Shown piece by piece: positions 3,150 to 20,735 of a stretch of 32,260 bases of DNA. The notes beneath the pieces were generated by a model. The model saw nothing but the letters and a program-made list of their open reading frames with translations, had not been told where the DNA came from and made no database searches. The stretch is taken from IMG/VR virus record IMGVR_UViG_3300011115_000121, positions 1 to 32,260 of that record. The stretch is one strand, 5' to 3'. The translations under genes were made by a program, and so were the position numbers. The DNA is from a virus. Position 1 is the first letter of the stretch; every line of letters begins with the position of its first letter.

Positions 3150-4068
3150 TTAGGATTCTCCAGGCTGTTGCTGCACAGAGAGGCACTTGTCCATTTCCAA
3201 TGGCTTTAAGTCTGTCATTCCTAGCGGCCACCCCATGAGCCACTCGACCCACATCGGGTTCAATTGCCCACCAATCAATTCGGGATTGTCTGTGGCTATC
3301 GTGCCACCCAACATAACTTGTAGGCTTTTTGTCCTGTGCCGAACTATTGCGTTCTTCGCATCGTTGGATTGGGGTGTCGGAAACTTTGCCGCAAACGATT
3401 GAAGCGTCCTCCCCGATTGAGATTTGGCTTGTGGGTTGTAATCTTTTGTCGGGCCTCTTTGACTGGCATCTGGTGTTGGCAAAAGACGTTTTTTGAGTGC
3501 TTTTCTGCTGTTGCTGCCCCCGTCCAATCCCGTTGTGCAAGGCGTGTGAAAGAATGTTTCGTTGTTTGGCGACAATCCAAATCCTGTCCCTCTGGTGGTT
3601 TGCGCCAACGTCTGCTGCTCCCAACACTCCCCATTTCGCATCAAACCCCATTGCGGCCAGGTCTCCAAGAACTCGTCCAAGTCCCCGAGAAGTGAGCATT
3701 GGTGAGTTTTCCACGAACACGAATCTAGGCTGTACTTCACAAATGATCCTCGCCATTTCTCGCCACATTCCGCTTCGTTCTCCGTCAATGCCAGCCCCCC
3801 CCCCTGCGGCTGAAATATCTTGGCATGGAAACCCGCCAGATACAACGTCAACAATTCCTCGCCACGGTTCTCCTCGAAAACTTTGTACGTCATCCCAAAT
3901 CGGGAAAGGCGGGAGAAGCCCGTCATTTTGTCGGGCGCACAGTACGCTTGCGGGGTATTGTTCCCACTCGACTGCACAGACTGTTCGCCATCCAAGCAAA
4001 TGGCCTCCGAGAATTCCTCCACCAGCGCCTGCGAAAAGAGCCAACTCATTTAAATTCTCCTTGTTCAT
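3136..4068 (-). CDS. dcm: C5 DNA cytosine methyltransferase
   Basis: A 310-aa enzyme that transfers methyl from S-adenosylmethionine to C5 of cytosine. Visible motifs: I, LFAGAGGGILGG (about residues 11-22); IV, GGFPCQDIS with catalytic C82; VI, FVENSPML (about 118-124); VIII, QRDRIWIVA (159-167); X, AIGNGQVPLCAATAW near the C-terminus. The target-recognition region between about 170 and 270 is short and polar. No restriction enzyme is next to it, so protection of phage DNA from host restriction, or regulation, is likely. The ATG at 4068 overlaps the replication gene stop (ATGA) and lacks a clear Shine-Dalgarno site, suggesting coupled initiation. The whole gene is shared with the nested frame at 3150-4049. 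Confidence 0.92.
   Translation of the reverse strand: MNKENLNELALFAGAGGGILGGHLLGWRTVCAVEWEQYPASVLCARQNDGLLPPFPIWDDVQSFRGEPWRGIVDVVSGGFPCQDISAAGGGAGIDGERSGMWREMARIICEVQPRFVFVENSPMLTSRGLGRVLGDLAAMGFDAKWGVLGAADVGANHQRDRIWIVAKQRNILSHALHNGIGRGQQQQKSTQKTSFANTRCQSKRPDKRLQPTSQISIGEDASIVCGKVSDTPIQRCEERNSSAQDKKPTSYVGWHDSHRQSRIDWWAIEPDVGRVAHGVAARNDRLKAIGNGQVPLCAATAWRILSESL
3150..4049 (-). CDS. Nested overlapping gene inside the methyltransferase (WVEWLMG family)
   Basis: A 299-codon frame, +1 relative to the methyltransferase and entirely contained in it. It begins MSWLFSQALVEEFSEA, contains DKMTGFSRLSRFGMTYK, CGEKWRGSF, SWKTHQCSLLGD, ETWPQWGLMRNGE, two (L/F)PTP segments, and ends with LNPMWVEWLMGWPLGMTDLK. 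These are the hallmarks of a widespread phage/prophage protein family I recognise, often annotated hypothetical or as a methyltransferase partner. AAGGAG lies exactly 7 nt before its ATG at 4049, a far better site than that of the methyltransferase. I infer that both frames are translated; the biochemical role is unknown. A conserved shadow forced by the methyltransferase sequence is the alternative. Confidence 0.6.
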   Translation of the reverse strand: MSWLFSQALVEEFSEAICLDGEQSVQSSGNNTPQAYCAPDKMTGFSRLSRFGMTYKVFEENRGEELLTLYLAGFHAKIFQPQGGGLALTENEAECGEKWRGSFVKYSLDSCSWKTHQCSLLGDLDEFLETWPQWGLMRNGECWEQQTLAQTTRGTGFGLSPNNETFFHTPCTTGLDGGSNSRKALKKRLLPTPDASQRGPTKDYNPQAKSQSGRTLQSFAAKFPTPQSNDAKNAIVRHRTKSLQVMLGGTIATDNPELIGGQLNPMWVEWLMGWPLGMTDLKPLEMDKCLSVQQQPGES

Positions 4069-4760
4069 ACATTTACTTTGCGTAGTTGTGCCATCTTTGC
4101 TAAAACCTCTAACGATGGGGGAACTGCTTTTTTGTCATCAGCTTTAATTTTCTCTAAAGCCGCATCAGGCTCATTTTTCATTGGAACTGTGAGCCTTACA
4201 ACGTCATATGGGTTTTGCTTGGGTGCGTTAGTGTTTCTAACCCAATTGCGCCAAGTGGCAAACCAATCTAGCTTTGTGCCTTTTGGTTGCGAAACCCAAT
4301 AATCTTTAAATTGGTCAAAAGTTTTTACAGGACTAAGTTCAGGTCTTGTTTGTTGGCAAAACTGTTCCCATTCCAATGGAAAAGAAAAATCAGTAGCGAG
4401 GCGTTTGCCGAGTGCCTTCTTTTCTTTCTTTGTCTCTGTCTCTCTCTCTGTCTCTAGAGGATCATGTTGATATCCATCTGATATCACGCTGGTATCATCA
4501 TGTTCCAACCAATGAGACAGTTTGATAACGATTTCTTTAGTTTTAATTTCTGTCAATCTAAGACGAAATGCAAGGGTTTTTGTGTCAGGGATGCGCCCCT
4601 CATCCTCACTAGCAATCAACCAAAGCATGACCAACACTTTGGCAGCCAAAGGGTCTAATTCATGCCATTCAAGGTCATCAAGAATGTCACGGTATAGCTT
4701 TACCCAAGGAGGCCGCCTGTCCTTGAAATGCTGAAACTTTGTCCAGTTTTTAATTTTCAT
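4065..4760 (-). CDS. Phage replication initiation protein (winged helix, DnaT-like C-terminus)
   Basis: A 231-aa protein. The N-terminal ~90 residues (KNWTKFQHFKDRRPPWVKLY... LAFRLRLTE) resemble a winged-helix DNA-binding domain of gpO/DnaD-like replication proteins. A charged linker (ETERETETKKEKK) follows, then FPLEWEQFCQQTRPELSP... KLDWFATWRNWVRN, the pattern of DnaT-like single-strand-binding/helicase-loader domains. It probably marks the phage origin and recruits the host helicase. No helicase gene is next to it. The ATG at 4760 lacks a good Shine-Dalgarno site and lies only 3 nt after a small hairpin, so its translation may be controlled by the leader RNA at 4761-4841. Confidence 0.75.
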   Translation of the reverse strand: MKIKNWTKFQHFKDRRPPWVKLYRDILDDLEWHELDPLAAKVLVMLWLIASEDEGRIPDTKTLAFRLRLTEIKTKEIVIKLSHWLEHDDTSVISDGYQHDPLETERETETKKEKKALGKRLATDFSFPLEWEQFCQQTRPELSPVKTFDQFKDYWVSQPKGTKLDWFATWRNWVRNTNAPKQNPYDVVRLTVPMKNEPDAALEKIKADDKKAVPPSLEVLAKMAQLRKVNV

Positions 4761-4781
4761 AAAAGCCCAAAAAAAAGGGCT
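4761..4781 (-). terminator. Weak hairpin before the replication gene
   Basis: AGCCC and GGGCT (4781-4777 and 4768-4764, minus strand) form a 5-bp stem with an eight-T loop, followed by TTTT and the ATG of the replication gene. It could end the c4-like RNA as a weak terminator or mask the start codon. The short stem makes either role uncertain. Confidence 0.35.
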
Positions 4782-4841
4782 ACACCTGAAGTCTCACCCT
4801 TGCGGATGTTGGCGGACTGGCGTAATAACCAGCAGACTTCA
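4761..4841 (-). ncRNA. Structured RNA resembling phage c4 antisense RNA
   Basis: On the minus strand, an outer 8-bp stem (TGAAGTCT 4841-4834 with AGACTTCA 4794-4787) encloses two hairpins: CTGG/CCAG (4832-4829 with 4820-4817, loop TTATTACG) and CATCC/GGGTG (4808-4804 with 4799-4795) capped by a GNRA-type GCAA loop. The T of CATCC pairs with G as a wobble that would be an A.C mismatch on the other strand, so the RNA is read leftwards. A second hairpin (AGCCC-T8-GGGCT, 4781-4764) follows. Size (about 80 nt), position in a regulatory operon and two exposed antisense segments (TTATTACG and CCGCCAA) fit my memory of P1/P7 c4 RNA. The family name is an inference. Confidence 0.55.
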
Positions 4842-4851
4842 TGTGTAACCC

Positions 4852-4871
4852 TATTACATTAACACCGCCAA
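4852..4871 (-). promoter_or_regulatory. Upstream segment complementary to the c4-like RNA (cis site)
   Basis: Minus-strand TTGGCGG (4871-4865) and GTAATA (4857-4852) are the reverse complements of CCGCCAA (4815-4809) and TATTAC (4827-4822) in the structured RNA just downstream, in nested antiparallel order. The leader could therefore fold into an alternative structure or serve as a cis binding site. TGTAA-TAGGG-TTACA (4858-4844) is a further small hairpin here. An 8-codon frame (MKHLAVLM, 4854-4880) starts directly after the HNH-like stop and covers the site. Confidence 0.45.
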
Positions 4872-4880
4872 GTGTTTCAT

Positions 4881-5213
4881 TTATTTTAATCCAAATTCAG
4901 TTTGAATAACAACATCTTTTTTTACAGGAATAGCCGCCCCTCTGTAATAATTGCAACTACGGCACACAGGAACAACATCTAACGGCTTGTTGTAATCCCT
5001 ATGGTCATAAACTTCACCTTGCTTTCCACAATCCACACAGGTAAGGGTTTTTACTGGTGCAAGCAATCCTTTTCTTATTGCTTTTTTTACTTGATAAATA
5101 GCATTTCTAGCGCCATTCACAATTCCATAAGCATCAGTACATGACCAACAATGTTTTGCGCTGTGATAACGATCAATTATTTCTTGATTGCATAAACGGC
5201 AAATAGGTGTCAT
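4881..5213 (-). CDS. HNH endonuclease-like zinc protein
   Basis: A 110-aa protein with four Cys pairs: CRLCNQ (5-8), CWSC (about 22-25), CVDCGKQ (about 59-62) and CRSCNYYRG (about 84-87), plus YDHRDYNKPLDVVPVC, the His-Asp/Asn stretch of phage HNH-like nucleases. The N-terminal zinc knuckle plus C-terminal HNH-like half suggest a small DNA-binding nuclease or a regulator with that fold. The ATG at 5213 overlaps the regulator gene stop (ATGA), so the two are co-translated. The structured RNA follows its stop. Confidence 0.7.
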   Translation of the reverse strand: MTPICRLCNQEIIDRYHSAKHCWSCTDAYGIVNGARNAIYQVKKAIRKGLLAPVKTLTCVDCGKQGEVYDHRDYNKPLDVVPVCRSCNYYRGAAIPVKKDVVIQTEFGLK

Positions 5214-5398
5214 TTTTTTACAACGCCTTTTAAAAATAATTTTGGGTAAGCCAATTTAATTGCTGGCGGTATGCCTCTAGTCATCCAGTTGTGTACCCTT
5301 TGCTTAGAGGCAAAACCTAGCTTTTTGGCAAGTGCAGAAGCACCGCCAAGTTTGGCAATTAAATCTTTATCAGATTGAAGTTGTTGGTTTGTAGTCAT
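5210..5398 (-). CDS. Cro/YdaS-type helix-turn-helix regulator
   Basis: A 62-aa protein. LIAKLGGASALAKKLGFASK followed by QRVHNWMTRGIPPAIKLAYP is the pattern of YdaS/Cro-like HTH repressors (helix-turn-helix about residues 22-43). It probably binds the inverted repeat at 5425-5469 and controls the two divergent promoters. The predicted start of its own transcript falls at or next to the ATG, so the message may be leaderless, as for lambda cI from PRM. No larger CI-like repressor is present in the window. Confidence 0.78.
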   Translation of the reverse strand: MTTNQQLQSDKDLIAKLGGASALAKKLGFASKQRVHNWMTRGIPPAIKLAYPKLFLKGVVKK

Positions 5399-5404
5399 GG
5401 TTGC

Positions 5405-5432
5405 ATCTTAGCAACAATTTGCAGAAAGTCAA
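5405..5432 (-). promoter_or_regulatory. Leftward promoter for the regulator operon
   Basis: Minus-strand TTGACT (5432-5427) and TAAGAT (5410-5405) with a 16-bp spacer form a sigma70-like promoter. The -10 box ends 6 nt before the ATG at 5398, so transcription would start at about the A of that ATG. The call rests on consensus match and position. Confidence 0.6.
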
Positions 5433-5469
5433 CATTTTGTGAATTTATTTTCAACAACGTGTTGACTTT
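5425..5469. promoter_or_regulatory. Inverted repeat operator between divergent promoters
   Basis: AAAGTCAACA (5425-5434) and TGTTGACTTT (5460-5469) are perfect 10-bp inverted arms separated by 25 bp. Each arm contains the -35 box of one of the divergent promoters. A dimer or tetramer of the HTH protein bound to both arms would cover both promoters at once. Confidence 0.6.
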
Positions 5470-5489
5470 TGATGATTTGCGATTATGAT
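5462..5489 (+). promoter_or_regulatory. Rightward early promoter
   Basis: TTGACT (5462-5467) and TATGAT (5484-5489) with a 16-bp spacer lie upstream of the plus-strand operon. The match is better than that of the leftward promoter (5/6 at both boxes). An apparent ATG at 5485 is part of the -10 box and cannot be a start codon. Confidence 0.7.
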
Positions 5490-5529
5490 TCACCCATGCC
5501 CTACTTTTGGGGTCTATTTAGGAAACCTT

Positions 5530-5787
5530 ATGAAACACAATTTGCAACACAGTTTTCAAGATGCGGTGTCATTTGATGACGGTGAGACTATTGAAGTCGT
5601 AACCGTTGGCTATGACCACTTGCCAGAAGAAAACAATTACCCCCACGCCCCCGATTACGCAGAAATGTTTGATGTGTTTGTGTTTGACGCAAACGACAAG
5701 GACATTACTTATGACATCCCAAATGAGGAATACAAGCGTTTGATGGATGAGGCAAAACGTGACTTTTACACTTGCGAGGCCGTATGA
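5530..5787 (+). CDS. Small acidic protein, first gene of the early operon
   Basis: An 85-aa protein (MKHNLQHSFQDAVSFDDGET...) rich in Asp and Glu. I do not recognise the family. The start at 5530 has AGGA (5520-5523) 6 nt upstream and lies downstream of the promoter. The longer frame from 5485 would start inside the -10 box. Acidic small first-gene products of phage early operons are often DNA mimics or host-takeover factors, but nothing specific supports that here. The stop overlaps the next ATG (ATGA). Confidence 0.75.
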   Translation: MKHNLQHSFQDAVSFDDGETIEVVTVGYDHLPEENNYPHAPDYAEMFDVFVFDANDKDITYDIPNEEYKRLMDEAKRDFYTCEAV

Positions 5788-5876
5788 AACACAAAATTAT
5801 CCAAACACTTATTGAGTGCGTTTTAGCCATTGTCATCTTTGGCGGCATTGGCGTAATGCTCGCTTGGAGGGGTTAA
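5784..5876 (+). CDS. 30-aa single-span membrane protein; overlaps the c4-like target site
   Basis: A 30-codon frame starting at an ATG that overlaps the upstream stop: M-K-H-K-I-I-Q then a hydrophobic stretch (LIECVLAIVIFGGIGVMLAW) and R-G. One transmembrane helix is predicted. A GAGG element lies 4 nt upstream. Codons 19-25 contain the 5839-5857 segment complementary to the c4-like RNA, and its stop lies 2 nt before the next ATG. Its position as a short frame before the next gene recalls the icd-type leader frames controlled by c4 in P1-like phages (inference). Confidence 0.65.
   Translation: MKHKIIQTLIECVLAIVIFGGIGVMLAWRG
5839..5857 (+). promoter_or_regulatory. Putative target site of the c4-like antisense RNA
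   Basis: Plus-strand TTGGCGG-CAT-TGGCGTAAT matches plus-strand 4809-4826 (TTGGCGG-AC-TGGCGTAAT). The minus-strand c4-like RNA is therefore complementary to the early mRNA by 7 + 9 bp with a 2/3-nt internal loop. The site ends 8 nt before the GGAGGGG ribosome-binding site (5866-5872) of the gene at 5879. Pairing could block translation of the 30-aa frame and its neighbour. Confidence 0.5.
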
Positions 5877-17150: not shown

Positions 17151-20100
17151 TTACCCGTTCAATAAACCGTAGTTGACCATTTTGTAACCGCTTGGATGCG
17201 TTACGACAGCTTCAGGCATGACTTTCTCGGCCTCATCTGCCATTACGCCTTGTTGACGTTCGCCAAAGATGTCGTATTCATACAAACCGATGCCAAGTTT
17301 GTGAGTACCAATGCGCTCAATGTTTGACTTCAATCTGCGATCAGAAAACGTACCAACGGGGGCCATCATTGCAGCACCACCCAAGCCAAACAAACCGCTT
17401 GTTAAAGCATTAGCACCCGATTGCGCAATACCATATCTTTGCATATCAGCCGCGCCTTGCGCTTGCGCACCCGCAAACACGGGGGCGGGGGCAATATTTG
17501 TTGGGTTGTAACCTTGGAACTGAGGCATTTGCAACTGTGAGCCACTCATCAAACCCGTGATTTCATTTAAGGGTTGGTTGCGCAATGTGAGTTGGGCTTG
17601 CAGAGCTTGCAAAGCCGCATTGTTGCTAAACTGCGAACTTCCAAGGTTTTGGTTGTATTGCTGAAGCACTGCGGCATTAGCCAATTGTTGTTGTTGTGCG
17701 GCAGTGGCTTGATTTTGAGCAAGTGCTTGGTTTTGCGCTGATTGCGTCCCCATGCCTTGTTGATAGTTTTGAGCCGCAGCCGCATTTGCAAGTTGTTGGC
17801 TTGTTACATTTTGACCAAAGTTCTGTGCAAGTGCTTGGTTTTGAGCCTGTTGTGTAGCCAACGCATTGTTGAAATTCTGCTGTGTAGCTTGATTTCCAAG
17901 TTGTTGGTTAGTCACATTTTGACCAAAGTTTTGAGCAACAGCAGCGTTTGCTAATTGTTGATTGGTCACGTTTTGACCAAAGTTTTGCGCAGTAGCTTGA
18001 TTTGCCAACTGTTGATTAGTTACGTTTTGACCAAAATTCTGCGCAGCCGCTTGATTTTGAGCCGCTTGCGTTCCCATACCTTGTTGGTAATTTTGACCAA
18101 TTGCGGCATTGTAGGCTTGCTGATTTTGCAAGTTTTGACCAAAGTTCTGACCAACTGCCGCATTAAATGCTTGTTGTTGGGCTAACCCTTGCGCTGAATT
18201 CTGCGCAATGGCTTGGTTTTGCGCTTGTTGGTTTTGAAGATTTGCACCAAAACCCGCTAATTGAGCTTGATTGGCAAACTGTGCATTACTTTGCGCTTGA
18301 CCGTATTGTTGCGCTTGAGCTTGGTTTGCAGCCGCTTGTTGTTGCAGTGCCGCATTTTGATTTTGCGCAAGTGCAGCATTTGCCGCATTAGATGCGGTCA
18401 TGCCCTGACCAAAGTTTTGAGCCACGGAAGCATTAGCGGCATTTTGAGCAGTTATGCCTTGTCCAAAGTTTTGACCAACTGCGGTATTTTGCGCTTGTTG
18501 AGCCGCCAATCCCTGACCAAAGTTTTGACCAATAGCCGCGTTTGTTGCATTGGATGCCGCCAAACCTTGCCCAAAATTCTGACCAACAGCCGCGTTTGCC
18601 GCATTTTGAGCAGCCAAACTTTGACCAAAATTTTGAGTAATAGCTTGGTTTTCAGCTTGTTGTGACGACATCCCTTGACCGTAATTCTGCGCAACAGCTT
18701 GATTGGCAGCTTGCTGTGATGTCATGCCTTGACCATAGTTTTGGGCAATAGCTTGATTGGAGGCTTGCTGTGCTGCTAAACCTTGGTTGAAATTTTGTGT
18801 AATAGCCTGATTAGCGGCTTGTTGAGAAGTCATTGCCTGACCATAGTTCTGAGCAATAGCCGAGTTTGCGGCTTGTTGCGCTGCTAAACCTTGACCAAAG
18901 TTTTGTGCAACTGCTGAGTTTGCTGCATTTTGTGCCGTTATTCCTTGACCAAAATTTTGTGCAGCAGCTTGATTTGCCAATTGTTGCGCATTTAATGCTT
19001 GACCATAATTTTGGGAAATTGCTTGGTTGCCCGCTTGTTGGTTTTGCAAATTAACGCCAAAACTTGCCAATTGCGCTTGATTTCCAAATTGACCTGATTG
19101 CAACTGTTGGTTAAAACCTTGGCCTTGAGCCGCGTTTTGTGCTTGTTGAGCCGCCAAAGCATTGCCAAAGTTTTGTTGTATGCCCGTATTCCCAAATTGA
19201 CCCGCAGCCAAAGCTTGACTAAAGCCTTGTTGATTTGCCGCAGTATCCAAACCAATTCCTTGCAAAGCCGCTTGGGTCAACAAGTCATTTTGTTGTTGGC
19301 TTTGATCTAGCATTGCATTTTTATATGCTTCACCACCCGCAACTAAACCTTGGTTTGCTAAATTTTGAGCATTTAACCTTTGTTGACGTTCCAATTGAGG
19401 CGCAAGCCGTGACATGATTGCCGCTTGTCCCGTAGTGCCCGCATTAACGGGCATTTGAGCAACATTTCTCAAATCTAATTGATTGTTGGCAAGATAGTTA
19501 TTGGCATTTAAGTTTTGATTGATTTGACCAATGTTATTAAGGGATTGTTGTAAATTAACACCTTGAACACCGCCTTGTGCCAATCCATATTGTGATGGGT
19601 TTATGCCGCCCGCCAAGCCGTATTGGTTTGCGGCAACATTTCCTTGAGCTAACCCGTATTGATTTGCCGCAACATCTCCTTGCGCTAAACCAAATTTATC
19701 GCCCGCAACATCACCTTTTGCTAAACCATATTGATTTGCCGTAACATTTCCTTGAGCTTGGCCGTATTGATCGCCCGCAACATTTCCTTGTGCCAAACCA
19801 TACTGATTTGCCCCAACATTACCTTGAGCTAAACCAAATTGAGTACCTGAAACATTACCTTGAGCTAAACCGTATTGATTTGCCGCAGCGGTATTAGCGG
19901 CTGATCCAAACTGACCACCCGTGAGATTACCTTGGGCCAAGCCGTATTGATTTGCCCCGACATTGCCTTGAGATAACCCAAATTGATTTGCACCAATTGA
20001 TGAGGCAGAACCATAACCGCCCAAATCAGGGCCGCCTTGAACAGCACCATAATTGCCATAACTTTGTTGCAAAGTTGGGCCTGTTACGCCACCCGTTGCC

Positions 20101-20735
20101 GTGCCACCTTGGAAATTACCTCTAGCATTACCACCATACACACCGCCAACGGCTTGACCACCTTGAAAATTGGCGTTAGCTTGTGGATTGGCAACAGAGC
20201 CTTGTGCCGTACCACTAGCAACAGAGCCTTGTGCTAAACCATTGGCAACAGAACCAAGTGCTTGACCGCTTTGTGCATTTCCCGTGGCTGTGCCACCCGT
20301 GACATTACCAACCGCTTGAGTGCCTGTAAAACCACCCGCAGCCGATCCCATCCCTGTTAGATCAGGCGCACCCGCTATTTTTCCTGAATCAGCAAGTGAG
20401 AAAATTCCTAACGGGCCTGTATATTTGTATGGCGTGCTAAGAATGTTTGATGCACTTGCAAGAGCTTGTTCACCAAGGTTCGACATTCCACTTTGAACTC
20501 GTTGTTGTGATTCCAACGTGTTTTGTGCCGTTGGAGTCAAATTTTGAGTAATTGTGGGTTGATTTGTAACGGGATCAAACGTAACGGTTTGACCACCCAA
20601 CGGGCCAACAATGTTGGGGTTGTTTAAATAACCTTGCGTAATCGCTGTATCTTTGTTTGCTACGCCTTGGGCAGTAGCGGCAGCCGCGTAATCAGGCGTT
20701 GCGGGTGCGGATGGTTGAGGGCATAAGAAAGCCAT
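17151..20735 (-). CDS. Giant Gln/Asn/Ala/Gly-rich repeat virion protein with a C-terminal S74 chaperone-like domain
   Basis: A 1194-aa protein. Residues about 130-215 have short Gly/Ala/Gln repeats (GSVASGTAQGSV). About 247-371 is a run of 12-residue repeats (ANQYGLAQGNVA). About 495-1000 is a run of 18-residue repeats (AQNFGQGLAAQQAANSAI). A conserved segment (LRNQPLNEITGLMSGSQLQM) precedes a C-terminal peptidase S74-like domain starting SDRRLKSNIERIG (S1131, D1132) with GERQQGVMADEAEKVMPEAV. The S74 end suggests assisted trimerisation, or an ejected protein tagged by that domain. The extreme Q/N content suggests an extended or prion-like, possibly helical, rod. It follows a GNAT gene and precedes the core proteins. 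Confidence 0.75.
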   Translation of the reverse strand: MAFLCPQPSAPATPDYAAAATAQGVANKDTAITQGYLNNPNIVGPLGGQTVTFDPVTNQPTITQNLTPTAQNTLESQQRVQSGMSNLGEQALASASNILSTPYKYTGPLGIFSLADSGKIAGAPDLTGMGSAAGGFTGTQAVGNVTGGTATGNAQSGQALGSVANGLAQGSVASGTAQGSVANPQANANFQGGQAVGGVYGGNARGNFQGGTATGGVTGPTLQQSYGNYGAVQGGPDLGGYGSASSIGANQFGLSQGNVGANQYGLAQGNLTGGQFGSAANTAAANQYGLAQGNVSGTQFGLAQGNVGANQYGLAQGNVAGDQYGQAQGNVTANQYGLAKGDVAGDKFGLAQGDVAANQYGLAQGNVAANQYGLAGGINPSQYGLAQGGVQGVNLQQSLNNIGQINQNLNANNYLANNQLDLRNVAQMPVNAGTTGQAAIMSRLAPQLERQQRLNAQNLANQGLVAGGEAYKNAMLDQSQQQNDLLTQAALQGIGLDTAANQQGFSQALAAGQFGNTGIQQNFGNALAAQQAQNAAQGQGFNQQLQSGQFGNQAQLASFGVNLQNQQAGNQAISQNYGQALNAQQLANQAAAQNFGQGITAQNAANSAVAQNFGQGLAAQQAANSAIAQNYGQAMTSQQAANQAITQNFNQGLAAQQASNQAIAQNYGQGMTSQQAANQAVAQNYGQGMSSQQAENQAITQNFGQSLAAQNAANAAVGQNFGQGLAASNATNAAIGQNFGQGLAAQQAQNTAVGQNFGQGITAQNAANASVAQNFGQGMTASNAANAALAQNQNAALQQQAAANQAQAQQYGQAQSNAQFANQAQLAGFGANLQNQQAQNQAIAQNSAQGLAQQQAFNAAVGQNFGQNLQNQQAYNAAIGQNYQQGMGTQAAQNQAAAQNFGQNVTNQQLANQATAQNFGQNVTNQQLANAAVAQNFGQNVTNQQLGNQATQQNFNNALATQQAQNQALAQNFGQNVTSQQLANAAAAQNYQQGMGTQSAQNQALAQNQATAAQQQQLANAAVLQQYNQNLGSSQFSNNAALQALQAQLTLRNQPLNEITGLMSGSQLQMPQFQGYNPTNIAPAPVFAGAQAQGAADMQRYGIAQSGANALTSGLFGLGGAAMMAPVGTFSDRRLKSNIERIGTHKLGIGLYEYDIFGERQQGVMADEAEKVMPEAVVTHPSGYKMVNYGLLNG
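17730..19250 (-). repeat. 54-bp imperfect tandem repeats in the giant virion gene
   Basis: About 28 degenerate 54-bp units encode the 18-residue motif N-(F/Y)-G-Q-G-x-x-x-Q-Q-A-A-N-x-A-x-A-Q. Units differ at many third positions, so the array is old or under protein-level selection rather than freshly duplicated. A few units are longer, with a QFGNQAQLAxFGxNLQNQQ variant. Confidence 0.75.
19621..19995 (-). repeat. 36-bp imperfect tandem repeats in the giant virion gene
   Basis: About ten 36-bp units encode ANQYGLAQGNVx (with QFGxAQGN, DKFGLAQGDV variants). They are in frame and diverged mainly at silent positions and at the residue before each Gln. They form a module distinct from the 54-bp array further downstream in the gene. 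Confidence 0.78.

Follow-up and report, generated by a model that had tools for sequence, protein, structure and literature searches.

To our knowledge, only a few systems of antisense-RNA control of phage replication are known (P1/P7, P4, and N15). In plasmids of the pT181 and pIP501 type, countertranscript-driven attenuation works through an antisense RNA that acts on the nascent leader and favours a terminator before the replication gene. In phage P4, the CI RNA pairs with seqA and seqC and thereby causes transcription of the replication genes to terminate prematurely, and SeqA has been called a structural homologue of IsrK (PMC4825925). The Rfam family isrK matches the P4 5' leader upstream of CI (NC_001609; L201:1696-1773, minus strand), and this match ends in a terminator-like hairpin and a U-run. 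The CI locus itself matches the c4 family RF01695 at P4 8420-8507; the scores against this family are 68.8 bits for phage P1 and 74.9 bits for phage P4. The P1 record annotates a1, b1, c4, a2, and b2, with a1 and b1 upstream of c4, and RNase P cleavage at GGW was seen with c4 (PMC5320573).

The window, i.e., the whole 32.3 kb stretch of virus DNA that was analysed, holds divergent early operons that meet around 5400-5530. The leftward operon contains, in this order, a Cro/YdaS-like gene, an endonuclease-like gene, a leader, and a replication protein gene, followed by DNA methyltransferase, RusA, and NinB-type genes. Elsewhere in the window, 17151-20735 on the minus strand codes for a 1194-residue protein that consists mostly of short repeats (ANQYGLAQGN, QNFGQ) and has a chaperone-like C-terminal end. 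The features discussed below are as follows.

5210-5398, leftward operon: Cro/YdaS-like gene
4881-5213, leftward operon: endonuclease-like gene
4883..4912, minus strand: sigma-70-like promoter, TTGTTA - 18 - TAAAAT (9 of 12 consensus positions)
4861..4876, minus strand: 5' hairpin H0, stem AACAC/GUGUU, with a1 as its loop (97% paired across 35 relatives)
4865..4871, minus strand: a1, UUGGCGG, complement of a' (covariation in relatives)
4852..4857, minus strand: b1, GUAAUA, complement of the P2 loop b', directly abutting stem P1 (own versus swapped loops)
4834..4851, minus strand: 5' strand of the outer stem P1 (fold, alignment)
4817..4832, minus strand: hairpin P2 with loop b' (UAUUAC at 4827-4822), 100% paired in the alignment
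4809..4815, minus strand: a', CCGCCAA, single-stranded, between P2 and P3 (fold, covariation)
4795..4808, minus strand: hairpin P3 with a GCAA tetraloop (fold, alignment)
4769..4794, minus strand: 3' strand of stem P1 (4794-4777) and U8 (4776-4769), an intrinsic-terminator-like end (sequence)
4065..4760, minus strand: replication protein gene, directly 3' of the leader (PHROG 26426 replication protein, E 1.4e-15)
5784-5876, plus strand: membrane-peptide frame of 30 codons, MKxKIIQTLxExxLAIxIFGGIGxxLAWRG, strongly conserved among relatives
5839-5857, plus strand: trans site proposed in the first-pass annotation, judged coincidental (energy, relatives)

The minus-strand fold described in the first-pass annotation, an outer stem with a loop hairpin and a GCAA hairpin, was recovered with an energy of −40 kcal/mol (z −4.75), and none of 200 shuffles was equally good. 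The outer stem was, however, longer than described: it did not stop at 4841 but extended to 4851, so that 4851-4834 pairs with 4794-4777. U8 comes next at 4776-4769, followed by GGG and the ATG at 4760. A simple terminator scan omits stem P1 and U8 because it demands a short loop. The c4-like RNA probably begins at the 5' strand of stem P1, and by analogy with c4 the GGG at the base of this stem is a possible RNase P site. The promoter score in the window is weak by itself, with 4 such sites in the region against 2.5 expected. In related leaders, the distance from a −10-like hexamer to hairpin H0 downstream of it is mostly 5-8 nt, and a −35 spacer of 17 is favoured; transcription therefore probably starts at the 5' hairpin. 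The gene at 4065..4760 gave a second PHROG match, to the primosomal PHROG 3992 (E 3.4e-11).

The architecture of this locus agreed with the c4-like reading in the first-pass annotation. The c4 RNA of phages P1 and P7 (RF01695) likewise has an outer stem, a tetraloop hairpin, and a loop hairpin with a single-stranded antisense segment; in P1/P7 c4 and in c4-a1b1 (RF03163), a1 and b1 likewise stand upstream in the same order, and c4 measures ~77 nt. Membership of RF01695 did not hold: positions 4700-4920 of the window gave no match to this model up to E 10 and none to any other Rfam family, c4-a1b1 (RF03163) and int-alpA (RF02996) included. Family records, i.e., viral contigs that carry the same RNA, gave 0 of 12 matches to RF01695 above the cut-off and one weak match (E 0.59). 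A reverse search with the family model R1 did not find phages P1 and P4, and neither of the two models detects the members of the other. As no Rfam family matches the RNA, annotation pipelines that depend on Rfam overlook it; a literature search of incomplete coverage did not find its description.

The differences from c4 also concern the layout. The RF01695 order is tetraloop hairpin, loop hairpin, single-stranded segment, whereas in the family it is loop hairpin, single-stranded segment, tetraloop hairpin. In phage P1, b1 lies 66 nt upstream of c4, but only 0-2 nt separate b1 from stem P1 in the family. The family outer stem would double as the terminator, and the second target a2b2 known from phage P1, at the ribosome-binding site of the regulated gene, had no consistent counterpart in a scan of 19 contigs. 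The downstream gene is a replication gene in the family and icd/ant in the case of P1 c4. RNase P processes c4 to ~77 nt; the length and the GGG in the window fit such processing, but GG is not conserved in the family. P4 CI resembles the family as a leader antisense RNA before a replication operon, with an upstream complement on the same transcript and premature termination (PMC4825925). It differs in that its tetraloop hairpin comes first and not last, a second site lies downstream, and its outer stem lacks the U-run that the family has. The pT181/pIP501 antisense RNA comes from the opposite strand, whereas the putative antisense RNA of the family makes up the downstream half of the leader that it would target. 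Because the covariance models mismatch both ways, the tetraloop side is swapped, and no a2b2 was found, the family should not be filed as C4, even if it works like c4/CI.

The first-pass annotation overlooked a partner of the RNA that lies only 1-25 nt upstream on the same transcript, namely the hairpin loop a1 followed by b1. In relatives of the replication protein that have this RNA, a hairpin with a UUGGCGG loop and a complement of the P2 loop always occur just upstream on the same strand. The folded element is common to well over 100 uncultured phages, with at least 93 parsed members from one pattern scan plus at least 32 from another in viral contigs. A pattern scan of genome contigs was rejected, as it returned mostly chance matches. 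Pairing rates from the candidate finder that requires complementarity were excluded as evidence, and sets found free of this constraint served as the independent test.

For b1:b', this set comprised at least 93 members found without any constraint on b. Among the matches listed, 96.9% of the loop bases were paired and pairing was complete in 80 of 93; unique members scored 0.958 with their own loop versus 0.713 (sd 0.015) with swapped loops, and 0 of 500 shuffles came near the own-loop value. For a1:a', 32 relatives were listed that had been found with no constraint on a or b. All 7 pairs formed in 32/32 of these matches, with four covarying types (TTGGCGG/CCGCCAA, TTGACGG/CCGTCAA, TTGGCAG/CTGCCAA, and TTGGAGG/CCTCCAA). 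Covariation of the stems, which the first-pass annotation had named as decisive, was found for all helices in an alignment of 35 sequences drawn, like the 135-member folding set, from complementarity-prefiltered members: 95.2% of cells were paired, and the covariation score was 0.649 versus 0.188 for shuffled and at most 0.117 for slid alignments. Both sides were altered in 4 of 5 pairs of H0 and in 5 of 5 pairs of P2. Between pairs with near-identical stem P1, b1 varied more (0.23 per site) than the stems (P1 0.09, P2 0.03). The b1:b' duplex energies were small, with a mean of −5 kcal/mol, which weighs against the mechanism favoured below. Judged from the sequences, a1-a' and b1-b' are complementary across the whole family.

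The geometry of the leader is nearly constant. Counted to the first P1 G-C pair, the gap from b1 to stem P1 was 0-2 nt in 130 of 133 members, −1 in one, and 3 in two, and stem P1 was 16-18 nt long in nearly all members. Of 128 structured matches, 120 had a T-run of at least 5 after stem P1, and the 8 that lacked it were mostly chance matches; the G+C-containing stem with a U-run directly after it, mostly of 7-9, has the form of an intrinsic terminator. After the U-run there is usually a GG-containing ribosome-binding sequence, and the start codon follows 14-20 nt on. The genes downstream of the RNA are mostly replication initiation or primosomal genes from several unrelated sequence families; ParB-like proteins and GIY-YIG/HNH-type nucleases also occur. 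In five contigs (L028, L102, L106, L117, and L178) the first gene after the RNA is not the replication gene but a GIY-YIG-like or other nuclease-like gene, which looks like insertion of such genes behind the leader.

Two folding states were predicted for this leader. Without the 3' strand of stem P1, a1:a' was paired in the lowest-energy fold of 129 of 135 members; in the full leader, stem P1 was formed in 135/135 and a1:a' in 0/135. When the six a1 loop bases were shuffled as a control, pairing before the 3' strand fell to 8/135. The minimum-energy fold moved to stem P1 once ~4-10 nt of its 3' strand were present. Full stem P1 and b1:b' appear to be mutually exclusive, because a linker of 0-2 nt cannot span 16-18 bp. 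Pairing, covariation, position, and the terminator-like end are established at the level of sequence.

We favour, with confidence slightly above even, the reading that the leader encodes an antisense attenuator which would control the replication operon in the manner of P4 CI and P1 c4. Before the 3' strand of stem P1 is synthesised, a1-b1 would pair with a'-b' of the same molecule. As b1 touches the base of the 16-18 bp stem and b' lies at its far end, this cis pairing would delay the terminator, and the replication operon would be read (ON). Because the minimum-energy fold shifts early to stem P1, the ON state would depend on strands exchanging slowly, on pausing, or on a protein. Terminated or processed RNA copies of ~75-80 nt would accumulate and bind a1-b1 of emerging transcripts. 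With a1-b1 captured, the transcript's own a'-b' would be free, stem P1 would form, and transcription would stop before the replication gene (OFF), which would yield more of the same antisense RNA. Replication would in this way limit itself, and the variable b1/b' pair would let the control discriminate between phages. We infer antitermination by cis pairing, trans capture, and RNase P processing; the covariation sets, two exclusive folds, geometry, promoter, U-run, downstream genes, and the c4/CI analogues are consistent with this mechanism.

A mainly prophage role, i.e., the prophage immunity for which c4 and CI are known, is not indicated, because neither tyrosine nor serine integrases were seen in 15 related records, which are possibly incomplete, and a search of 399 bacterial genomes from one order found the RNA in only 2. 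A role in lysogeny was rejected on these grounds. A better fit, at a guess, would be that the phages limit their own replication or tell co-infecting phages apart. On a more tentative level, held at somewhat less than even confidence, the family may be a widespread unnamed class of phage RNA that combines antiterminator, antisense RNA, and terminator in one ~110-nt leader of phages without a detected integrase, limits their own replication operon, and separates like from unlike co-infectors by a b1/b' code. The family would extend antisense control to many uncultured phages of freshwater and the sea, in a compact design whose two states are readable from sequence, and the natural series of b1/b' variants makes its specificity directly testable. 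For cultured phages, a DNA match over most of the query was obtained only in Manatee Spring assemblies; BA3, Vibrio 1.183.O, Limnohabitans DC33, and Xanthomonas PBR31 share the replication genes, and the leader was absent in the stretch tested.

A structured leader that acts purely in cis, either as a pseudoknotted terminator/antiterminator or as an RNA that binds polymerase or a phage protein in an HK022 put-like manner, would account for pairing partners that all lie and covary within one molecule and for a terminator-like stem. Here a1:a' and b1:b' would be purely intramolecular and antisense action in trans would be absent. We consider this rather unlikely, since b1/b' diverge faster than P1 and P2 among close relatives, as expected for a specificity element, full stem P1 is incompatible with b1:b', and phages P1 and P4 make diffusible antisense RNAs from leaders with this a1-b1 layout.

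A true c4 mode, in which an RNase P-processed antisense RNA controls translation at a2b2 as for P1 icd/ant, is improbable. The GGG at the base of stem P1 sits where c4 would be cleaved at GGW (PMC5320573), the RNA size of 75-78 nt agrees, and a1b1 is upstream as in phage P1; but the 19 contigs scanned lacked a consistent second site, the ribosome-binding GG directly after the U-run leaves no space for a2b2, and stem P1 starts with GG in only a minority of the family.

The target in trans proposed in the first-pass annotation does pair with the RNA over 7 + 9 bp (TTGGCGG-CAT-TGGCGTAAT at 5839-5857, plus strand). It was correctly placed inside the 30-codon frame, but it ends 8 nt before GGAGGGG and leaves this ribosome-binding site uncovered. 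Its energy of −30 to −31 kcal/mol is unsurpassed elsewhere in the window once the RNA locus is set aside, and 0 of 21 dinucleotide-shuffled windows reach it (best −28.9). Chance sites as good or better occur in the family: among 94 family RNAs tested on their own contigs, three unrelated ones have a stronger off-site duplex, and the related L004 has one of equal energy. The site therefore ranks within the best few per cent for the very quantity by which it was picked. The site also occurs with one G-U in L003 and L004. The target DNA TTTGGCGGCATTGGCGTAATG, or one G-U-compatible change of it, is kept in six relatives that gave no such RNA with the family model (L002, L005, L007, L009, L018, and L040); in L001 it is unchanged, though the RNA loop is ACTGTG and not ATTACG. 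The RNA loop instead tracks b1 of its own leader, and the covariation with the target that had been anticipated did not appear. The site encodes IFGGIGVM in the conserved 30-residue peptide. Because coding for this peptide explains the site and it does not covary with the RNA, we conclude that the complementarity is a coincidence from Gly-Gly codons. The site's persistence in relatives where the model finds no RNA and in the loop-changed L001 leaves the proposed switch, i.e., silencing of the rightward early operon in trans by the leftward RNA, without support, and we regard this switch as extremely improbable.

Most relatives of the replication gene carry a different RNA in the same slot. The L010 leader matches the int-alpA RNA (RF02996) at the Rfam cut-off with 36.0 bits. 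In close relatives this RNA takes the position that the family RNA has in front of the replication gene, but its sequence and fold differ, and the partner of its variable loop is the ribosome-binding region downstream, whereas the family loop pairs upstream. In L005-L059 (e.g., L010:4900-4975), the variable hairpin loop is complementary to 1-2 sites close to where the replication gene begins, and loop and sites covary, with an own score of 6.3 versus 2.24 (sd 0.67) for swapped loops. This suggests an antisense role for the int-alpA-like RNA as well, and the covariation of loop and site offers a possible function for int-alpA RNA. Both leader types occur in tandem in L054 (near 3784 and near 4361) and L056 (near 2963 and near 3536), where an inserted short gene follows the c4-like RNA and the replication gene follows the int-alpA-like RNA.
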